Shown here: positions 44,417 through 53,564 of the stretch, piece after piece
Layout of the letters: every line of letters starts with the position of its first letter
How positions within the stretch are numbered: the first letter of the stretch is position 1
NCBI GenBank assembly: GCA_014360905.1
Contig: JACIWW010000002.1
Span: 62,001-126,000, forward strand
Source of the DNA: Chloroflexota bacterium
GTDB lineage: Bacteria > Chloroflexota > Anaerolineae > UBA2200
Length of the DNA stretch: 64,000 bases
Direction: 5' to 3'
Program-made: the position numbers and the translations under genes
The notes under the pieces: model-generated
Seen by the model: only the letters and a program-made list of their open reading frames with translations
Databases searched by the model: none
What the model was told of the DNA's origin: nothing

Positions 44417-45220
44417 TCAGTAGGTGATGAGTGTACCGGGATTGAAATCTGGGTTGTCTAAAGCTTGTTGTAGCAAACCAGGTTCCAGACCTGATAACAA
44501 ATATACACGTAATTCAGGCAGATTGCGCACCAATTCAACCATCAGTTGCACTTTGGTTTGCATCCCTCCGGTAACATCCACGCCGTGCGAACCACCAAGA
44601 ACGCTTTTTTCTTCATTTACTTGACCGGCATGAATCACGGGAATTAAATGTGCCTTTGTATCTAAACGGGGATCAGCACTGTAGACCCCCTTCACCTCTC
44701 CGGCCAAGATAATACGCTGTGGATGTAGTAGATGAGCCAAGTAAACAAAGATGATCTCCGTAGAAATAATGGCAGTACCCCAAAGTTCATCAATGGCTAC
44801 ATCACCATAGACCAACGGCACCAAACGCTGTTCCAAGACTTTCTGTAGCGGATAGATACTCAGCTCAATTAACTTCCCGCCTCGGCAGTGAGCAGAAGCC
44901 GATGGCTGTATCGAAACTACGGGGACGCCTGCAGCCCAAAATATGTCCGTGACTAGGCGGTTCAACCGCGTAGCAGCTGCTCCGGTCTCGGCATAACCCC
45001 GCCAATCCGTGCATCCAACCTGAACCTGATAGCGCTGCGCCACGAAGTGGCCAAAGGACCCGCTTCCATGACCCAGCAACAGACGCATATCGGGGCGCCT
45101 ATCCAAAGCATGGCACACCTCTCGGGCCAATCGTTGAATTACCTCGGGACGTGGAGTGGCCTCGACGTTTTTGTCGGTGATCAGCGACCCTCCCAGTTTG
45201 ACAAACACTAGTTCAGACAA
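44417..45220 (-). CDS. ipk: isopentenyl phosphate kinase
   Basis: 267-residue amino-acid-kinase-fold enzyme phosphorylating isopentenyl phosphate to isopentenyl diphosphate, the last step of archaeal-type mevalonate pathways. FVKLGGSLITDK binds the phosphates, GHGSGSFGHF carries the histidine that marks IPK, PVVSIQPSASAH and YGDVAIDELWGTAIISTE line the substrate pocket, GEVKGVYSADPR and GGSHGVDVTGGMQTKV follow. Its ATG overlaps the aconitase X small subunit gene by eight bases. This linkage to aconitase X and UbiD supports the pathway assignment. Confidence 0.9.
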   Translation of the reverse strand: MSELVFVKLGGSLITDKNVEATPRPEVIQRLAREVCHALDRRPDMRLLLGHGSGSFGHFVAQRYQVQVGCTDWRGYAETGAAATRLNRLVTDIFWAAGVPVVSIQPSASAHCRGGKLIELSIYPLQKVLEQRLVPLVYGDVAIDELWGTAIISTEIIFVYLAHLLHPQRIILAGEVKGVYSADPRLDTKAHLIPVIHAGQVNEEKSVLGGSHGVDVTGGMQTKVQLMVELVRNLPELRVYLLSGLEPGLLQQALDNPDFNPGTLITY

Positions 45221-45599
45221 CCACTATCTCCTCATCATTGATTTCAACCATATTGCCAGTACGGATCTGGGCAATATCCACCTGGTCTACCATTGGAATG
45301 CCCGCCATGATTGCTCCTACTGCGACAATGGCCTCACTGCGAGCATTGATGATCGCTGCTGGAGCTTTGCCCCGCTTAGCCAAGCGGTAAAGCGTGTACG
45401 AACCCACAGTGCTGCCCTTCCCAGTGGGGAAAACCAGCACGCGACCCGCAATGCACTCCCCCTCCAAGGGATGACCCACCTCAATAACCACGCCTGTTTC
45501 TGCGTCAACCCCACCCAAAAAACCAATGGGCGCGGGTGATACCAGGGCCAGTCCCTGTGCCCTACCCCGGCAAATAGCGCGTCCATGCAACTTGATCAT
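45213..45599 (-). CDS. aconitase X swivel (small) subunit, probable phosphomevalonate dehydratase small subunit
   Basis: 128-residue DUF126/aconitase X swivel domain: LHGRAICRGRAQGLALVS at the start, PTGKGSTVGSYTLYRLAKRG and GIPMVDQVD are the conserved substrate-site segments. In archaea the two-subunit aconitase X dehydrates mevalonate 5-phosphate to trans-anhydromevalonate 5-phosphate. In other bacteria, aconitase X acts on hydroxyproline, but the IPK and UbiD neighbours favour the isoprenoid role. 49 bases after the large-subunit gene. Confidence 0.85.
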   Translation of the reverse strand: MIKLHGRAICRGRAQGLALVSPAPIGFLGGVDAETGVVIEVGHPLEGECIAGRVLVFPTGKGSTVGSYTLYRLAKRGKAPAAIINARSEAIVAVGAIMAGIPMVDQVDIAQIRTGNMVEINDEEIVVV

Positions 45600-45648
45600 G
45601 CCTTATACCTTCCCAACACACCCATAGATCTTCGCAGGTTCAGAAGCC

Positions 45649-46884
45649 CTAGCGTGACACTTCCCAGCGCCCCGTAAGCGCAGCTTGTAGGCATTGCTCC
45701 AGCGAGCCAAAGCGACGAGGTAGCTTGGAGTGCATGGGGCTATAGAAAGCAGCCTTAGCTGAATTGGTGGCCATAGCTTTGAATCTCAACTCCTCTATCG
45801 GTGCAACAACTAAACAAGTATCGGAAAATACTCTGCCCCCTGCAGCTTCTATGGCGGCAACCAAGCCTTTTTGCTCTGCTAGCTCCCGTACAGCACGCGA
45901 AGTGGTGATCCACAGCGTCGCTTTTACATGCTCGCCTCCCAAGAATGCAGCCACCTTTTCGATATCGGCCAGCGTACTGTGCGGACACCCTAGACTAACG
46001 AAATCAATCTCATCGAGGGACGAATTAAGCGCTTCATAGCCATCTGCCAAATCCTCGATCGGGATCAGGGGTAGTTTCTTGTGCAGCGGCATCGCGTGTT
46101 GAGCTTCTGGAGTGACGCCCTCGATATGGTACAATGCCACAGCGCCACTGGCAGCCATGGCTGCCCCTAGCGCCATCAAGTGCTCTTGTTGGGGTAGAAA
46201 CCCTGCTTTTTTCCAGGTCTCGGCAAGAAAGCGGAAATAGGGGACGCCGTCTCCAACCAACAATCCGACGAGGTAACCAAGCGCCCCATAGTCAGCTTCG
46301 CTGTATAGGGGACAGCGCACTTCAACGATATGGGTCGCTTGGCGATTCTCCGACAAATGCAACCCGTATGCTGCCGTTCGTCCAGTGATTGCTGCTGCTA
46401 GGGCGCTAGGTCCACCCTCCCGATTGCTGCGTGCTGCCAAGACCGAATTGGCAAAACTCACCGCGGATGACTCGCTCCAAGCTAAATGATCGCCCGCCCG
46501 TGGGGCATAGCCAACTAGGTACGGTGTGCACGTGCAGGTCGGAGCCACTCCCATTGTTGTAAGCGCTTTGATCACCCGTTGCTGTTGACGAGCAAATTCA
46601 GGTGGAATGCCCATCTCAGTCCAACGTTCTAGGTCCATGCCGGCTGGGTTCATAAATGTAGGCACACGCACCCGCGCACCTTGAGCCGCCCATTCTTCCA
46701 GAAATTCTACACCGGCATCGCCCAGGTTCTTGTAACTCACGCCTGCCACCTGTGCACTGGCCACGTGAACTAGACCCTGCGCGTCGTAGATCTCGGCTAG
46801 GGTCACCACAATCTGCATTGCTTTTTGCACGGCCGGCCCTTGCGCGCCAGCCAACATGGCTTGCTCTTCTTCCGTCAACTGCAT
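45649..46884 (-). CDS. aconitase X catalytic (large) subunit, probable phosphomevalonate dehydratase large subunit
   Basis: 411-residue DUF521/aconitase X protein. TCTCTPYLVGYAPRAGDHLAW, SSAVSFANSVLAARSNREGG, SLGCPHSTLADI and FSDTCLVVAP are family signatures; the cysteines in CTPY, GCPHS and DTCLV are the expected [4Fe-4S] ligands. With the swivel subunit it should catalyse dehydration of mevalonate 5-phosphate. Starts three bases after the UbiD-family stop, so translation is likely coupled. Sensitivity to oxygen is expected from the cluster, consistent with an anaerobe. Confidence 0.87.
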   Translation of the reverse strand: MQLTEEEQAMLAGAQGPAVQKAMQIVVTLAEIYDAQGLVHVASAQVAGVSYKNLGDAGVEFLEEWAAQGARVRVPTFMNPAGMDLERWTEMGIPPEFARQQQRVIKALTTMGVAPTCTCTPYLVGYAPRAGDHLAWSESSAVSFANSVLAARSNREGGPSALAAAITGRTAAYGLHLSENRQATHIVEVRCPLYSEADYGALGYLVGLLVGDGVPYFRFLAETWKKAGFLPQQEHLMALGAAMAASGAVALYHIEGVTPEAQHAMPLHKKLPLIPIEDLADGYEALNSSLDEIDFVSLGCPHSTLADIEKVAAFLGGEHVKATLWITTSRAVRELAEQKGLVAAIEAAGGRVFSDTCLVVAPIEELRFKAMATNSAKAAFYSPMHSKLPRRFGSLEQCLQAALTGRWEVSR

Positions 46885-46887
46885 AAC

Positions 46888-48237
46888 TCAGCCAATGTAC
46901 TTTTCCAAAGGCATAGACGGGTACCTAACCTTGCGAAACGTCGCGCGCTCTTCCTCAGTGCGCAGTGCCCCAGAGGGCTTACGCCAGGGGATGGTCGCAT
47001 CCAGACCCATCTTGGCCGTGCGTGATTTTTCTCCAGCGATATGCAAGGCGGAGGGATCCAACGAACTACCGCCCTGATCACTTAGAATAACCACCCCGCT
47101 GTTCGCCTGTAACCGCGTTGCAATAGCCCATTCGAGTTCGTCCGGATTATAAATATCGATGTCATCGTCCACTACGAGCACGTGCTTCAGCGAAGCATGT
47201 CCCCGAAACGCAGCCTGAATGGCCAACAGGCCATCGTCTGGCCCACGCTTACGGATTTGCACTACCGCATGCAGCCACGAACCGCCACCCGGGGTGAGGA
47301 GCACGTTTACGCAATCGCACACTTTGCTCACCTCGGCATAGATGGTTGGCTCACGGGGCAGTCCCATGAGCAACTTATGCTCCAATCCACCAGGCAAAAG
47401 AGCTTGGTAGTATGCATCCGGGCGGTGTGTTACACAATGGATTTCGATAACAGGCTGACGGCGCACGATGTCCATCGTTTCCGTCAAGTCTAGGAACGGC
47501 CCCTCTTGTGTCTGTTGTCGCGTGATGCGCCCCTCCAACACAATCTCCGCTTCCGCCGGCACCTCCAGGTCTACAGTACGGCACTTGACCAAAGGCGTAG
47601 GCGTCAAGGCATTGGCAATAGCCAATTCATCCACACCAGGAGGCGGGCTCATCGCCGCTGCGAGCAGCACCGCCAGGCTATTGCCAATGCAGATGGCAAT
47701 GTCCAACTCACCCCCTGCCTTTTGCAGAGCATTATATGTACCACGCCCTTCAACAAGCCGTGCAGCAAAATGCGTAGCATCCAACCGCATCAGCCGGTGA
47801 AAGCTCATATTGCGGCCATACTCCGGGTCCTTGACAATCGCTATCCCTGCTGTTATGTACGGGCCACCATCGCTCGGCAGGTGCATGAGAATGGGTAAAC
47901 AGTACAGATCCACCTGTTGCTCAACGACTTCCTGGCAAGGCCCTGAAGTGATAATGGGCGGTGGGACAGGATTGTGCAATGCTTCAGCTAAGGTGAAAAG
48001 CAATTTCTCCTTGGACACACCCAAGCCGGAAGCTAGAAGCGACCTCTGCGCGCAGATACCCGCAACTACAGGATAGTCAGATCCCTTCACGCGCTGAAAA
48101 AGCACTGGCCGTTCACCCAACTGGTGGATCAGCGCTGCCATTTCCAGGTGGGGATCTACCTCCTGCGACACAGTCAATAACTGCCCAGTATGTTTCAGCA
48201 CATCCAAGAATGTACGAAAGTTCATCTGCTCAGCCAT
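46888..48237 (-). CDS. UbiD-family decarboxylase, probable anhydromevalonate phosphate decarboxylase
   Basis: 449 residues from ATG 48237 (frame open to 48288). UbiD family, prenylated-FMN-dependent non-oxidative decarboxylases: RTFLDVLKHTGQLLTV start, AGICAQRSLLASGLG, PFLDLTETMD, ALLPGGLEHKLLMGLPREP, LVVDDDIDIYN and a C-terminal swap segment. Between aconitase X and RNase Z in the same operon. In archaea this family decarboxylates trans-anhydromevalonate phosphate to isopentenyl phosphate, the substrate of the IPK encoded in the operon. The UbiX-type prenyltransferase that makes prenylated FMN is not in the window. Confidence 0.87.
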   Translation of the reverse strand: MAEQMNFRTFLDVLKHTGQLLTVSQEVDPHLEMAALIHQLGERPVLFQRVKGSDYPVVAGICAQRSLLASGLGVSKEKLLFTLAEALHNPVPPPIITSGPCQEVVEQQVDLYCLPILMHLPSDGGPYITAGIAIVKDPEYGRNMSFHRLMRLDATHFAARLVEGRGTYNALQKAGGELDIAICIGNSLAVLLAAAMSPPPGVDELAIANALTPTPLVKCRTVDLEVPAEAEIVLEGRITRQQTQEGPFLDLTETMDIVRRQPVIEIHCVTHRPDAYYQALLPGGLEHKLLMGLPREPTIYAEVSKVCDCVNVLLTPGGGSWLHAVVQIRKRGPDDGLLAIQAAFRGHASLKHVLVVDDDIDIYNPDELEWAIATRLQANSGVVILSDQGGSSLDPSALHIAGEKSRTAKMGLDATIPWRKPSGALRTEEERATFRKVRYPSMPLEKYIG

Positions 48238-49195
48238 TTGCCATCTGGGCTCCAGGAGTGACAATCTTCTGTTCCTCATCACCTGCACGGGTAAGGCGGT
48301 AGTGATCTAGATCCTTCGCCACTACTGTGTTGGGAAAGATAGGACAAGCTTCAGCCAGAATCTGACTCGCTGAATACCGTCGTGAGATATGCGTCAAATA
48401 CAGTTTCTTGACCCCTGCTTGGTAGGCCAGAGTAGCGGCTTGGGAAGCTGTCAGATGACCAAAACGCACTGCCATCTCTGCTTCTACATCCAGATACGTA
48501 GCCTCGATAACCAGGGCATCTGCTCCGGCTACATGCTCGACCAATCCGTCGATCTGAGCAGCATCGCCAACCCAGGCAAGTTTCACGCCAGGAACCAAAG
48601 GTCCCAATACCTGCTCTGGATAGACCATGCTTCCGTCAGCCAGTGTAATCGCCTGGCCCTGTACCAAGAGCTTGCGTTCTGGCCCAGCCGGCACACCTAA
48701 TCGCTCCGCCTCGCTCACAAGGAAGGGGCGTCGGCTCTCCTCCTCGAACAAAAAGCCAAAACAGCCAGGGCCTCGGTGGATAACGGGGAAAGCAGTGATC
48801 GTCAATCCGTGACGCTGCCAAATGACACCAGGATGGATCTCATGGTACTCGATTTTCAGTTGCACCTCTCCGCCTCGCAATACCACGTTCATCAAATCGC
48901 GAACGCGCTCCAGAGCCCAACCACCAGCGTATATGCTGAGATGGTTTGCTGCTTCCCAACGGGCGAAAGTAGATACCAGACCACCTAATCCTAGAATGTG
49001 ATCAAGGTGACCATGTGTCAACAGTACTTTATCCAGTCGCTTGAACCCAAGGCCGCTTTTCAAGATCTGACGTTGCGTCCCCTCGCCGCAATCCACCAGA
49101 AACCGCTGATCCTCGTACATGACCATCGCTGCGGAAAGTCCACGCTCCACAGAGGGTGCTGAGGCGGAGGTGCCGAGGAAAACGAGTTCGATCAT
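48230..49195 (-). CDS. rnz: ribonuclease Z-type metallo-hydrolase
   Basis: 321 residues. Metallo-beta-lactamase fold with THGHLDHILGL (zinc motif HxHxDH), FLGTSASAPS start, DCGEGTQRQIL, VIEATYLDVEAEMA and GHLTASQAA (HEAT/HTTxxxxA-like). tRNA 3'-processing endonuclease by similarity. Compared with common RNase Z, the VGDAAQ segment replaces TGDT, so a related phosphodiesterase role remains possible. Overlaps the UbiD gene start by eight bases; first gene of the isoprenoid operon. Confidence 0.85.
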   Translation of the reverse strand: MIELVFLGTSASAPSVERGLSAAMVMYEDQRFLVDCGEGTQRQILKSGLGFKRLDKVLLTHGHLDHILGLGGLVSTFARWEAANHLSIYAGGWALERVRDLMNVVLRGGEVQLKIEYHEIHPGVIWQRHGLTITAFPVIHRGPGCFGFLFEEESRRPFLVSEAERLGVPAGPERKLLVQGQAITLADGSMVYPEQVLGPLVPGVKLAWVGDAAQIDGLVEHVAGADALVIEATYLDVEAEMAVRFGHLTASQAATLAYQAGVKKLYLTHISRRYSASQILAEACPIFPNTVVAKDLDHYRLTRAGDEEQKIVTPGAQMANG

Positions 49196-49312: not shown

Positions 49313-51022
49313 TTATTGTTTTTCCTTGACGAACTGGCGCCAATCGCCGTGGATTCCATCGTCCGTCACGCCATAGTAGACGTGTAATTGGCCATCGCTT
49401 CCACGCTGCACGAAATCATAGCATTTGTAACGCGCACGGCGATAGGATTTCCACAATCCAATATTCCCGCGCCACTTAACCTGCTCGGCCTGCACTGGCC
49501 GGTTCTCAAATTCGGTGATGGCATAGCGCCACAGACGGCGCGCTGACGGCCGCGTTACATTTCGCACTAAATTGCCGTTGCGCAGGTCCTTGAGTGTATA
49601 ATATTTCACCCCTTCGCGCTCTACAACCTCGACTATCTCCACACCCGTCCGAGGTGGGGCAACCAACTGCCCGATTGCTGGAGCAGTCGCTGCAGCCGCG
49701 GGAACAATTGCCGTCGTGGCAGGAACCTTCTGTGGCACAACTGAGGGAGCGAGAGCTCGCTGGACAAGTTGTACCACCTCGTCACGCAGGGCGCGACTTG
49801 TTTCCGATTCTTGCCGCACATAGATTTCAACCCCGTGCAAGGCATAGGGCGGGTTCTCGCCCTTTGGCACGGTCACACGCAGAACATGCGCACCTTGCGA
49901 CTTCACAACATCAACAACCACCTCAATCGGTGGCGTAACTGCGCGACTGATCTCCGCAATCAGAGTACGGGTTGCCTCCTCGGGATGATCTATGCCAATT
50001 ACATGGCTTCTGGGCTTTGAGCCTGCACCAACATAGATCGTGCCGCCATTGGTATTGGCAAAGGCCACTACGTCACGGAGAATAGCCCGCAAATGCCCAC
50101 CCTTACGTGTCATGCTCTCATGAAACGATTGCACAATGCTGGGGCCAGCTTCTTGAGCGACTTGAACATAGTCAACAACAGGCGCGGTTGGTTGATAAGG
50201 CCGCGTGCGCGTGAAATCATCGCCAAGAAAGACCTCTTTCAATGCTTCGAAAGTGAGCTCGGGAAGCAGAATCTCGGTTACCCGATCCCCAATGCCAAGA
50301 GCATGCTCGTCTTTCGGATCGCGATCAAGGCGATGTGCATCTGAAGACTGAATACAATGCATACGTCGTGGATATTCCGGTTTCGAACCATTGTAGAAGG
50401 ATGCTGTCGTATGACGTCCCGATTCCTCCAAATCAGTAACTTCAAGCGCGTGTAGGTGGGGATCCTGGGTGTAGGCGATCTTGGTCTGCCCGCCAAAATC
50501 GTAACCACGCATGGCTACTCCATGGGCCGAGTTAGCATGCGCAGCGATGACCAATCCACCCGCTTCAGCAATAATGCGGTAGGCAGTCAGCACGTCTACA
50601 GTAGCCCCAACTTCACATGACCCAAGATCGAGCTTATCTGGCGGGATCCTTAGGTCAAGCAGGATGTGCTCTAGCTCACGAATAGAGGTTTCGGGAGGAA
50701 AAATTCCTAGTATGTGAAAGCCCAAGGTGGCCGTGAACTCGAATCCTGGTAAGATGAGCATCTTCTTCTCCAGGCGCCGGTACTCTTCCAACTCCTGCTT
50801 TTCTTCGCTGCGCAGGCGCTTCAGACGCTCCAGCAATTCCAGCTCGTGAATGCGCGTTCTGATAGCAGCAACACCGGCTACTGTGTTGTGGTCAGTAATC
50901 GCAACAATGTCGAGCCCTCGCTCCTCGGCTTTTTGTAAAATTTGCAGATAAGTAACATTCGGTTGTTGATAGCAGGACGAAGCTGGAGTATGAATATGCA
51001 GGTCTGCACGCCTCCAGCTCAT
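49313..51022 (-). CDS. PHP phosphoesterase domain fused to a Schlafen AlbA_2-type domain
   Basis: 569 residues. N-terminal PHP domain: ADLHIHTPASSC, ITDHNTVAG, PGFEFTATLG, IAAHANSAHG and SSDAHRLDRDPK give the full set of metal ligands of a trinuclear phosphoesterase. From about residue 290 an AlbA_2 (Schlafen-type, DNA/RNA-binding) domain: SMTRKGGHLRAILRDVVAFANTNGG is a hallmark (AFANTNGG), then IYVGAGSKPR. The last 100 or so residues, after an Ala/Pro linker, form an unrecognised W/Y/R-rich module (RRARYKCYDF). I chose ATG 51022, after the lon stop; an ATG at 51112 would overlap lon by 74 bases. Possible nucleic-acid-linked phosphoesterase. Confidence 0.82.
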   Translation of the reverse strand: MSWRRADLHIHTPASSCYQQPNVTYLQILQKAEERGLDIVAITDHNTVAGVAAIRTRIHELELLERLKRLRSEEKQELEEYRRLEKKMLILPGFEFTATLGFHILGIFPPETSIRELEHILLDLRIPPDKLDLGSCEVGATVDVLTAYRIIAEAGGLVIAAHANSAHGVAMRGYDFGGQTKIAYTQDPHLHALEVTDLEESGRHTTASFYNGSKPEYPRRMHCIQSSDAHRLDRDPKDEHALGIGDRVTEILLPELTFEALKEVFLGDDFTRTRPYQPTAPVVDYVQVAQEAGPSIVQSFHESMTRKGGHLRAILRDVVAFANTNGGTIYVGAGSKPRSHVIGIDHPEEATRTLIAEISRAVTPPIEVVVDVVKSQGAHVLRVTVPKGENPPYALHGVEIYVRQESETSRALRDEVVQLVQRALAPSVVPQKVPATTAIVPAAAATAPAIGQLVAPPRTGVEIVEVVEREGVKYYTLKDLRNGNLVRNVTRPSARRLWRYAITEFENRPVQAEQVKWRGNIGLWKSYRRARYKCYDFVQRGSDGQLHVYYGVTDDGIHGDWRQFVKEKQ

Positions 51023-51038
51023 CGGCTGCTTTGCTTTT

Positions 51039-53564
51039 CTATGTTTCGGCACTTGTTTTCGTTTTCTTCCTTCTCTTAACACTCGTTGTAGTATTTGTCT
51101 TGGGGAGGCCATCGGTTAACGCCGCCGCTAGCACTTCATCTACGGTGTCTACCAGGACAAATTTCATCTCCCTTCTGACCTCCTCCGGAACTTCTTCTAG
51201 GTCGGGCTCATTACGCCTGGGCAGAATGACGGTATCGAGACCAGCACGCCGTGCAGCCAATACCTTCTCCTTCACTCCCCCAATAGGCAACACCTGACCG
51301 CGTAGCGTGATCTCACCAGTCATTCCCACCTTTGGATTCACCGGCCGACCTGTGAGCAGAGAGACCAGCGCAGTAGCCATCGTCACCCCAGCGGAAGGGC
51401 CATCCTTGGGGATGGCAGCAGCAGGAATATGCAGGTGGATATCGCTCTTAGCAAAGATATCATCAGGGATGCCCAGATCCTTGGCTTTTGAACGCACATA
51501 GCTCAAAGCTGCCTGGGCCGATTCCTTCATCACATCTCCCAGTTGCCCCGTGATCAAAAACCCTTTGCTGCCTGGCATGCGGGTGGCTTCAACAAAGATG
51601 ATGTCCCCTCCAGTGGCCGTCCAGGCTACACCAGTGGCAACACCAGGGATCATCGTCCGCTCCGCTGCTTCGAAGAAGTAACGGGGCTTACCCAGCATCT
51701 CGACGACCACCTCGGGCGTGATCACCTTTTTCTCCGTTATCTTCCCTGCCGCGATTTGCGTAGCCACTTTGCGACAAATGGAACCTATCTCGCGCTCCAA
51801 ATTCCGCAGCCCAGCTTCGCGTGTATAGTCGCGGATGATGCGCTGCAATGCCTCATCCGTGAACTCGATTTCGTCTTTGGTCAGTGCGTTCTCGCGCAAT
51901 TGCCGTGGGATAAGATACCCACGTGCGATTTTCACCTTCTCTTCCTCGGTATAGCCAGATAGTTGCAAGATCTCCATGCGATCCTTCAATGGCGGCGGAA
52001 TCGGGTCAAGCAGATTCGCCGTAGTGATGAACATGACCTGCGATAGATCAAAGGGCACGTCCAAATAGTGATCGCGAAATTCTCGGTTCTGCTCTGGGTC
52101 CAGCACCTCTAGCAAAGCGGAGGAAGGATCCCCGCGCCAGTCTGCGCCGATCTTGTCCACCTCATCCAACATAAAGACTGGGTTCTTAGTACCTACGCGT
52201 TTGATGGCCTGTATGATACGTCCAGGCATGGCCCCGATGTAGGTGCGGCGGTGTCCCCGAATCTCCGCCTCATCCCGTATTCCACCCAAGGACATTCGGG
52301 TGAACTTGCGGCCTAAAGCACGAGCAATGGACTGCCCCAGTGATGTCTTCCCTGTCCCTGGTGGTCCGACAAAGCACAGAATAACCCCTTCCCGCTCTCG
52401 GCGGATGTAATCCACGGGTTCTTCAGTGGGCTCCTCACCTTCGGCCTTCTTCCGCTCCTGACGCAGCTTGCGCACGGCCAAATACTCCAAAATGCGCTCC
52501 TTGATTTTTTCCAAATCATAGTGGTCCTCGTCCAGTACCTGGCGTGCGCGCTCAATGTCCAAGTTGTCCTCGGTTACCACCTGCCAGGGCATGCTGACCA
52601 GCCAATCCAGATAGGTCTTGATGACCGAGTACTCCGCAGCAGCAGGTGGCATCTTAGACAGGCGGTCTAACTCGCGACGAGCTTCCTTCTCGGCCTCTGG
52701 TGGCATTCCTGCCTTTTCGATCTTGGCGGCCAATTCGTTTATCTCAGCCTGCTGTTCATCCTCCTCACCCAGTTCCTTCTTGATGGCCTTTAACTGCTCG
52801 CGCAAGTAGTACTCGCGCTGCATCTTTTGCATTTCAGACTGAGCCTGATCCTGGATCTTCTTGCCCAACTCCAGGACCTCTAACTCCTTGTTCAGGACAA
52901 CATTCAACTTTTGCAACTTGGCTGTAACGCTATCGGCTTCCAAAATAGCCTGCGCATCCGTCATGTCCATGCGCACATAGGAAGCTACCAGGTAAGCGAG
53001 CTGCCGTGGATCTTCGACGCTAAGCGTGGCCATAATCAATTCTTCGGGTATATAGGGCATCAGCGAGGCCATGCGTCGGAATAACTCAATCGTGTTACGC
53101 ATCAATGCCTGGACCTCGACGCCTTCTTCCACTGTGTCAGGGCTCACTTGCACTCTTGCCATCATGTACGGCTCAGTCTGGGTGAATTCTACGATTTTGA
53201 TGCGCTCTATACCCTGCACAAAAAGCCGTATAGTGGAATCAGGAGCCTTGGCAAAGCGGGCAATAAGGGCCGCCGAGCCAACACGGTAGACATCGTCAGG
53301 ACCTGGCTCTTCTATACTCGCATCCTTAAGGGCCACCAGAGCGATAATGCGGTTGCCCAGCACAGCATCGTCCACCAGCCTGATCGAACGCGGTTGGCCC
53401 ACGATCAAGGGCAAGAGAATGGGAATGGGATATACAACTGTATTCTTCAACGGCAGGATAGGCAGAACCTCAGGGATGGTCAGGCGCTCAGTAGACTGCT
53501 CTGCCTGCATCGCCGGTGCTTTTTGCTCTGCATTCGTTCCCGCTCCCTGTGCCAATGACTTCAT
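51039..53564 (-). CDS. lon: ATP-dependent Lon protease
   Basis: 841 residues, LonA type: N-terminal substrate domain ([13 protein letters not shown]), AAA+ module with Walker [16 protein letters not shown] and Walker [14 protein letters not shown], and serine protease domain with [11 protein letters not shown] (catalytic Ser) and [14 protein letters not shown] (catalytic Lys). C-terminus is lysine rich (KRRKKTKT). GGAGGTGA lies eight bases upstream. 42 bases after hsp20, so both are likely one stress transcript. Confidence 0.95.

Follow-up and report, generated by a model that had tools for sequence, protein, structure and literature searches.

The window analysed here, a 64,000-nucleotide stretch of a draft genome (96% completeness) from a Chloroflexota bacterium of the class Anaerolineae, carries four genes that very probably give this bacterium a functioning lower mevalonate pathway of the archaeal type. 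Genes for a UbiD-family decarboxylase, the large and small subunits of aconitase X (AcnX-L and AcnX-S) and isopentenyl phosphate kinase (IPK) make up a single tight run at window positions 44417–48237 of the minus strand. This reading is drawn from the genes present, the families and clades to which their products belong, the conservation of ligands, the absence of the alternatives searched for and the distribution of the genes across the class. In the proposed route, AcnX-L/S would use a [4Fe-4S] cluster to convert mevalonate 5-phosphate (MVA5P) to trans-anhydromevalonate 5-phosphate, which the UbiD enzyme would decarboxylate to isopentenyl phosphate. IPK would convert the latter to isopentenyl diphosphate (IPP), and IDI2, encoded elsewhere, would yield dimethylallyl diphosphate. 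Thiolase, HMGS, HMGR and mevalonate kinase (MVK) on other contigs would supply the upper pathway. An earlier note on this DNA had proposed a complete second half of the archaeal mevalonate pathway, with archaeal-type phosphomevalonate dehydratase (PMDh), anhydromevalonate phosphate decarboxylase (AMPD) and IPK. All four genes were identified by family, and the enzyme assignments are borne out by trees, substrate residues, a motif and a curated family cut-off. Genomes and loci are referred to by handles (G and L numbers; the window genome is G000).

AcnX-L matches the Pfam AcnX family (PF04412, 500 bits), and AcnX-S matches AcnX_swivel (PF01989, 6.5e-35) as well as NF003046 (168.6 bits; cut-off 163). 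The best solved match of AcnX-L was the PMDh of Thermococcus kodakarensis (TkPMDh, 7cnr; 348 bits), with hydroxyproline dehydratases at 247–253 bits. Fe-S ligands and MVA5P contacts of TkPMDh are named in PMC8184944; our large-subunit numbering reproduced each residue checked against that paper, and the small-subunit numbering in our pocket comparison is one off from it. The cysteine trio that binds the cluster (Tk C110, C283 and C342) is present in the window AcnX-L, and every one of the MVA5P ligands G48, V49, S50, N53, N79, E129, S130, S131, K361 and Y365 is conserved. The Ser-Thr-Val loop of AcnX-S (GSTVGS) is as in TkPMDh. Trees throughout were quick, with support by SH-like approximate likelihood ratio test (SH-aLRT) only. 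The window AcnX-L groups with archaeal PMDhs, including TkPMDh, leaving hydroxyproline dehydratase and an in-genome AcnX paralogue outside (SH-aLRT 100). Tree and substrate residues support the predicted assignment of the pair as an archaeal (type IIb) PMDh.

It is extremely improbable that the pair is instead a hydroxyproline-type dehydratase and the operon degradative. Type I/IIa cis-3-hydroxyproline dehydratases belong to the same superfamily but differ in substrate pocket and Fe-S ligands, and the profile match for that type lies far under its cut-off (327 vs 700 bits). Clustering with these enzymes, which the earlier note had named as a result that would count against it, was not seen; the tree and the pocket residues both place the window AcnX with PMDh. 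A separate AcnX is, moreover, already present in a hydroxyproline-like cluster. The paralogue L002 has an At-type Asp at 47, Gly at 50 and a gap at 53, and failed several of the MVA5P-ligand tests. The neighbours of this second pair (L180:10812–12514, contig C1 of G000) are two proline-racemase-family genes, an FAD amino-acid oxidase, DapA-family genes and an apparent ABC transporter; the cluster probably serves hydroxyproline degradation. Since L002 lacks several PMDh features and lies in a proline-racemase-family neighbourhood, the genome holds two kinds of AcnX.

The genome has no UbiD other than the window protein (PF01977, 8e-59). That protein is nested among archaeal AMPDs (SH-aLRT 98), its neighbours being Bathyarchaeia along with two other archaea (L078 and L095), and lies apart from HmfF, InD and dihydroxybenzoate decarboxylase, in a monophyly test with only three outgroups on long branches. 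The window protein and archaeal AMPDs have an EGPFxDxT motif in common; the corresponding motif of HmfF and InD is EGPF(G/A)E. The core Arg and Glu of the family (N..R, EGPF) are present, and for the third acidic residue the protein has Asp, in common with archaeal AMPDs. Assignment as a putative AMPD is supported by these features. An aromatic or other acid decarboxylase placed in the operon by chance is very unlikely: the UbiD family is broad and, among solved relatives, HmfF (furan dicarboxylate) comes closest at 289 bits, but the nested position, the motif together with other group-specific residues, the single copy and a UbiD–AcnX-L order conserved from archaea to Anaerolineae all argue against it. 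The grouping with aromatic decarboxylases that would have contradicted the initial proposal did not appear in the tree.

IPK scored 173.7 bits against the NF040647 equivalog (cut-off 120). An upper-pathway cluster (L175:5700–9728, contig C26 of G000) contains an archaeal-type thiolase, HMGS and a DUF35-like gene beside HMGR. HMGS matches the archaeal family TIGR00748 (544 bits), thiolase is over cut-off for PRK06064 and HMGR is of the TIGR00532 type; the DUF35-like protein was named from sequence features, its family match being weak. MVK (TIGR00549, over cut-off) and IDI2 (TIGR02151, 418 bits) are both encoded away from this cluster. The genome has four GHMP proteins, namely MVK and three resembling sugar kinases. 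A genome search found neither DXR nor a TIGR01240-type mevalonate decarboxylase, and no IspE was among the four GHMP matches; DXS, IspG and IspH were not searched. As DXR, IspE and the TIGR01240 decarboxylase were not found, the cassette and the upper pathway look like the cell's only detectable isoprenoid route. The earlier note had called for a search for diphosphomevalonate decarboxylase and had named a complete deoxyxylulose phosphate route in a genome lacking MVK or HMGR as a result that would count against it; these searches turned up no TIGR01240-type decarboxylase, DXR or IspE, and MVK and HMGR are both present.

Several findings weigh against a working AMPD-based pathway. UbiX, which the earlier note had wanted sought, was not found in the genome: no PF02441 protein over cut-off was seen in G000 or in the three family relatives tested (G082, G053 and G106), nor any TIGR00421 match in six genomes of the window family. 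The supply of prenylated FMN (prFMN), the probable cofactor of the UbiD enzyme, is thereby left without explanation. The window UbiD also has RGT in place of RH and so lacks the His at the Fdc1 His191 position, which, with the other residue roles, we take from the Fdc1 literature to be a metal ligand. This RGT variant is common to many archaeal AMPDs and to the UbiX-linked locus L044. Furthermore, 21 genomes of the class carry both AcnX and the alternative decarboxylase. We treated a genome-encoded UbiX as a condition for cofactor supply and not as a defining feature of UbiD, and its absence was not counted as exclusion from the family.

Nor was UbiX found in G017, which belongs to the same order, in two f9 genomes or in others. 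The seven genomes listed as UbiX-negative (G000, G082, G053, G106, G017, G007 and G043) are 88–97% complete. In the same seven, PF02441, a model that also takes in CoaBC, has no match over cut-off, and neither UbiX nor CoaBC is detectable; the family was present in 14/14 control genomes. Among AcnX-bearing genomes of the class, UbiX was detected in 72/105 and in none of the remaining 33, some of which are incomplete drafts. The same operon begins with UbiX in L044 (genome G013), and UbiX lies close to AcnX in G163, G262 and G288; these positions link prFMN to the pathway in genomes that have UbiX.

The cassette could be intact and its UbiD step nevertheless run without prFMN, by another cofactor or route, in a lineage devoid of UbiX. 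The failure to find UbiX in four AcnX-bearing family genomes and in the relatives named above is in line with this, as is the replaced metal His. We consider it unlikely, because a single residue (position 72, outside the motifs examined) separates UbiX-positive from UbiX-negative Chloroflexota AMPDs, and because L044 combines the same RGT variant with UbiX in its operon. A UbiD residue tracking UbiX absence was looked for and set aside, with only position 72 doing so, among Chloroflexota; loss of the metal His as an indication that prFMN is dispensable is argued against by L044. Candidates for a hidden UbiX were also set aside. A weak Flavoprotein match (G000:C9:59092) lies within what appears by eye to be an SIS-domain protein. 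For the ~205-aa Flavoprotein matches in Bathyarchaeia and G006, two were examined (L169 and L170) and ten others only listed; the two resemble AfpA-type archaeoflavoproteins, a likeness that we presume from sequence features, and an FMN-reductase-like gene adjoins. It is conceivable, if somewhat doubtful, that an apparently essential decarboxylase of the prFMN type operates without UbiX in this Chloroflexota lineage, as well as in several Bathyarchaeia whose UbiD is of the same type. That would imply an unrecognised flavin prenyltransferase, prFMN scavenging or a UbiD independent of prFMN. With no other IPP route seen, an unrecognised prFMN source or a UbiD with different cofactor use would follow for the window genome.

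The gene layout is compiled in the table below. Four genes on one strand with 8-bp overlaps and gaps of 3 and 49 bp had been described earlier, and our coordinates and spacing agree: RNase Z and UbiD overlap by 8 bp, UbiD and AcnX-L are separated by 3 bp, AcnX-L and AcnX-S by 49 bp, and AcnX-S and IPK overlap by 8 bp. The UbiD start was placed at the ATG at 48237; the longest open reading frame begins at 48288. The RNase Z gene directly upstream of UbiD is probably a member of the same transcription unit, and RseP follows ~200 bp downstream of IPK. Promoter and terminator scans gave no more matches than shuffles.

Features of the pathway locus, in window coordinates, with the evidence for each assignment
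Feature	Coordinates	Strand	Evidence
UbiD-family AMPD (predicted)	46888..48237	-	PF01977/PF20695/PF20696; nested in archaeal AMPDs; EGPFxDxT motif
AcnX large subunit, PMDh type IIb (predicted)	45649..46884	-	TkPMDh 7cnr match; conserved ligands; tree
AcnX small (swivel) subunit, PMDh (predicted)	45213..45599	-	PF01989; NF003046; GSTVGS substrate loop
IPK	44417..45220	-	NF040647 equivalog; solved IPKs are the best PDB matches
RNase Z (not a pathway enzyme)	48230..49195	-	NF000801 over cut-off; same neighbour in L042 and L048

In the genus-mate MAG-37 (L042; coordinates match G082), the order PHP/RNase Z/UbiD/AcnX-L/AcnX-S/IPK/RseP is kept at 81–92% identity, and conservation of the whole block argues that the four-gene run is not due to chance. 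The closest relatives of the operon outside Chloroflexota are archaeal, which would fit an archaeal contaminant in a bacterial metagenome-assembled genome (MAG). The likelihood of this is close to nil, as MAG-37 has this locus, next to the same bacterial genes (Lon, RNase Z, RseP and MoaA), on a 415-kb contig, and AcnX of the window type is spread through the class. A protein with PHP and Schlafen AlbA_2 domains, its N-terminus weakly TrlF/Ppl-like, is encoded at window 49313–51112 and also stands beside the operon in L042 and L048.

Distribution was surveyed in 298 genomes of the class, with AcnX of PMDh type taken as 46–100% identity, a threshold set by eye. Such AcnX occurs in 105/298 genomes and the TIGR01240 decarboxylase in 146/298, with the overlap of 21 noted above (Fisher p 5.5e-14, uncorrected for kinship). 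IPK was over cut-off in 252/298, and a full-strength DXR match was seen in 3/298. In at least 21 genomes, picked by eye, IPK lies ~390–650 bp from AcnX-L, a spacing that fits an intervening AcnX-S gene; in five others, also picked by eye, IPK and the alternative decarboxylase share a strand and are 80–120 bp apart. These spacings suggest that, next to IPK, one module for decarboxylation was exchanged for the other. The AcnX and UbiD genes, of probable archaeal origin, stand where some relatives have a phosphomevalonate/diphosphomevalonate decarboxylase gene next to IPK. Two genomes of the same family as the window genome (G126 and G145; 84% and 82% complete) gave no AcnX, IPK or TIGR01240 decarboxylase, reflecting either incompleteness or a different route. 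In 14 further Anaerolineae loci (L051, L053–L059, L061–L063, L065, L066 and L069) the large subunit of this AcnX stands with no AcnX-S found nearby and, in most of them, neither UbiD nor IPK.

Within archaeal PMDhs, the AcnX-L tree has a single clade of 53 Chloroflexota rows (SH-aLRT 92), with two KSB1 MAGs as sister (88). The Chloroflexota grouping in the UbiD tree is weak (80). Archaea have the same order, as MVK–UbiD–AcnX-L–AcnX-S–IPK, and it is shared with many Bathyarchaeia. We infer that the AcnX and UbiD genes moved from archaea into an ancestor within Anaerolineae. The AcnX and UbiD of an Anaerolineales MAG (L121:6510–9599) fall elsewhere among archaea, with UbiD next to L094 (100); judged by tree position, this is a putative second, separate transfer. 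PMDh-type AcnX outside Chloroflexota (L073, L077 and L116) was seen in the two KSB1 MAGs, with AcnX-S and IPK, and on a short Planctomycetota MAG contig that could be contamination.

The proposed pathway resembles the Aeropyrum pernix-type archaeal pathway (PMDh, AMPD, IPK; Hayakawa et al. 2018) in its three steps, families, ligands and motifs, and differs in its bacterial host, its TIGR00532-type HMGR and the failure to find UbiX. It shares the use of IPK with the haloarchaeal-type/Chloroflexota phosphomevalonate decarboxylase pathway (Dellas et al. 2013, PMC3857490), but here AcnX and UbiD stand in place of the TIGR01240-type decarboxylase, which some sister lineages have next to IPK. The window also has the full cassette, whereas many Anaerolineae AcnX-L genes, the one in G030 (L177) among them, have none of AcnX-S, UbiD or IPK beside them. 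PMC10040528 (2023) still terms the pathway unique to archaea, and the earlier note had known of no characterised bacterial example. That remark is out of date: the review PMC13001223 credits Kanno et al. 2024 (AEM 90:e01106-24; its ref. 64) with reporting this pathway in Ca. Promineifilum breve. That organism is likewise a Chloroflexota bacterium, reported to have archaeal-type PMDh and AMPD; the window comes from a separate genome and probably a different lineage. No survey of the pathway across Anaerolineae was found in the literature searched. Ours is not the first bacterial case; what it adds is a route traced through much of the class, mostly where the alternative decarboxylase is missing.

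The archaeal-type mevalonate pathway in bacteria, so far reported from one organism, is thereby extended and is likely to be widespread in a class. IPK is kept while the decarboxylation chemistry varies among relatives, being either a GHMP-type decarboxylase or AcnX plus UbiD, which bears on the evolution of mevalonate variants and their movement between domains. That UbiX is missing from lineages with an apparent dependence on UbiD presents a testable gap in prFMN biology.

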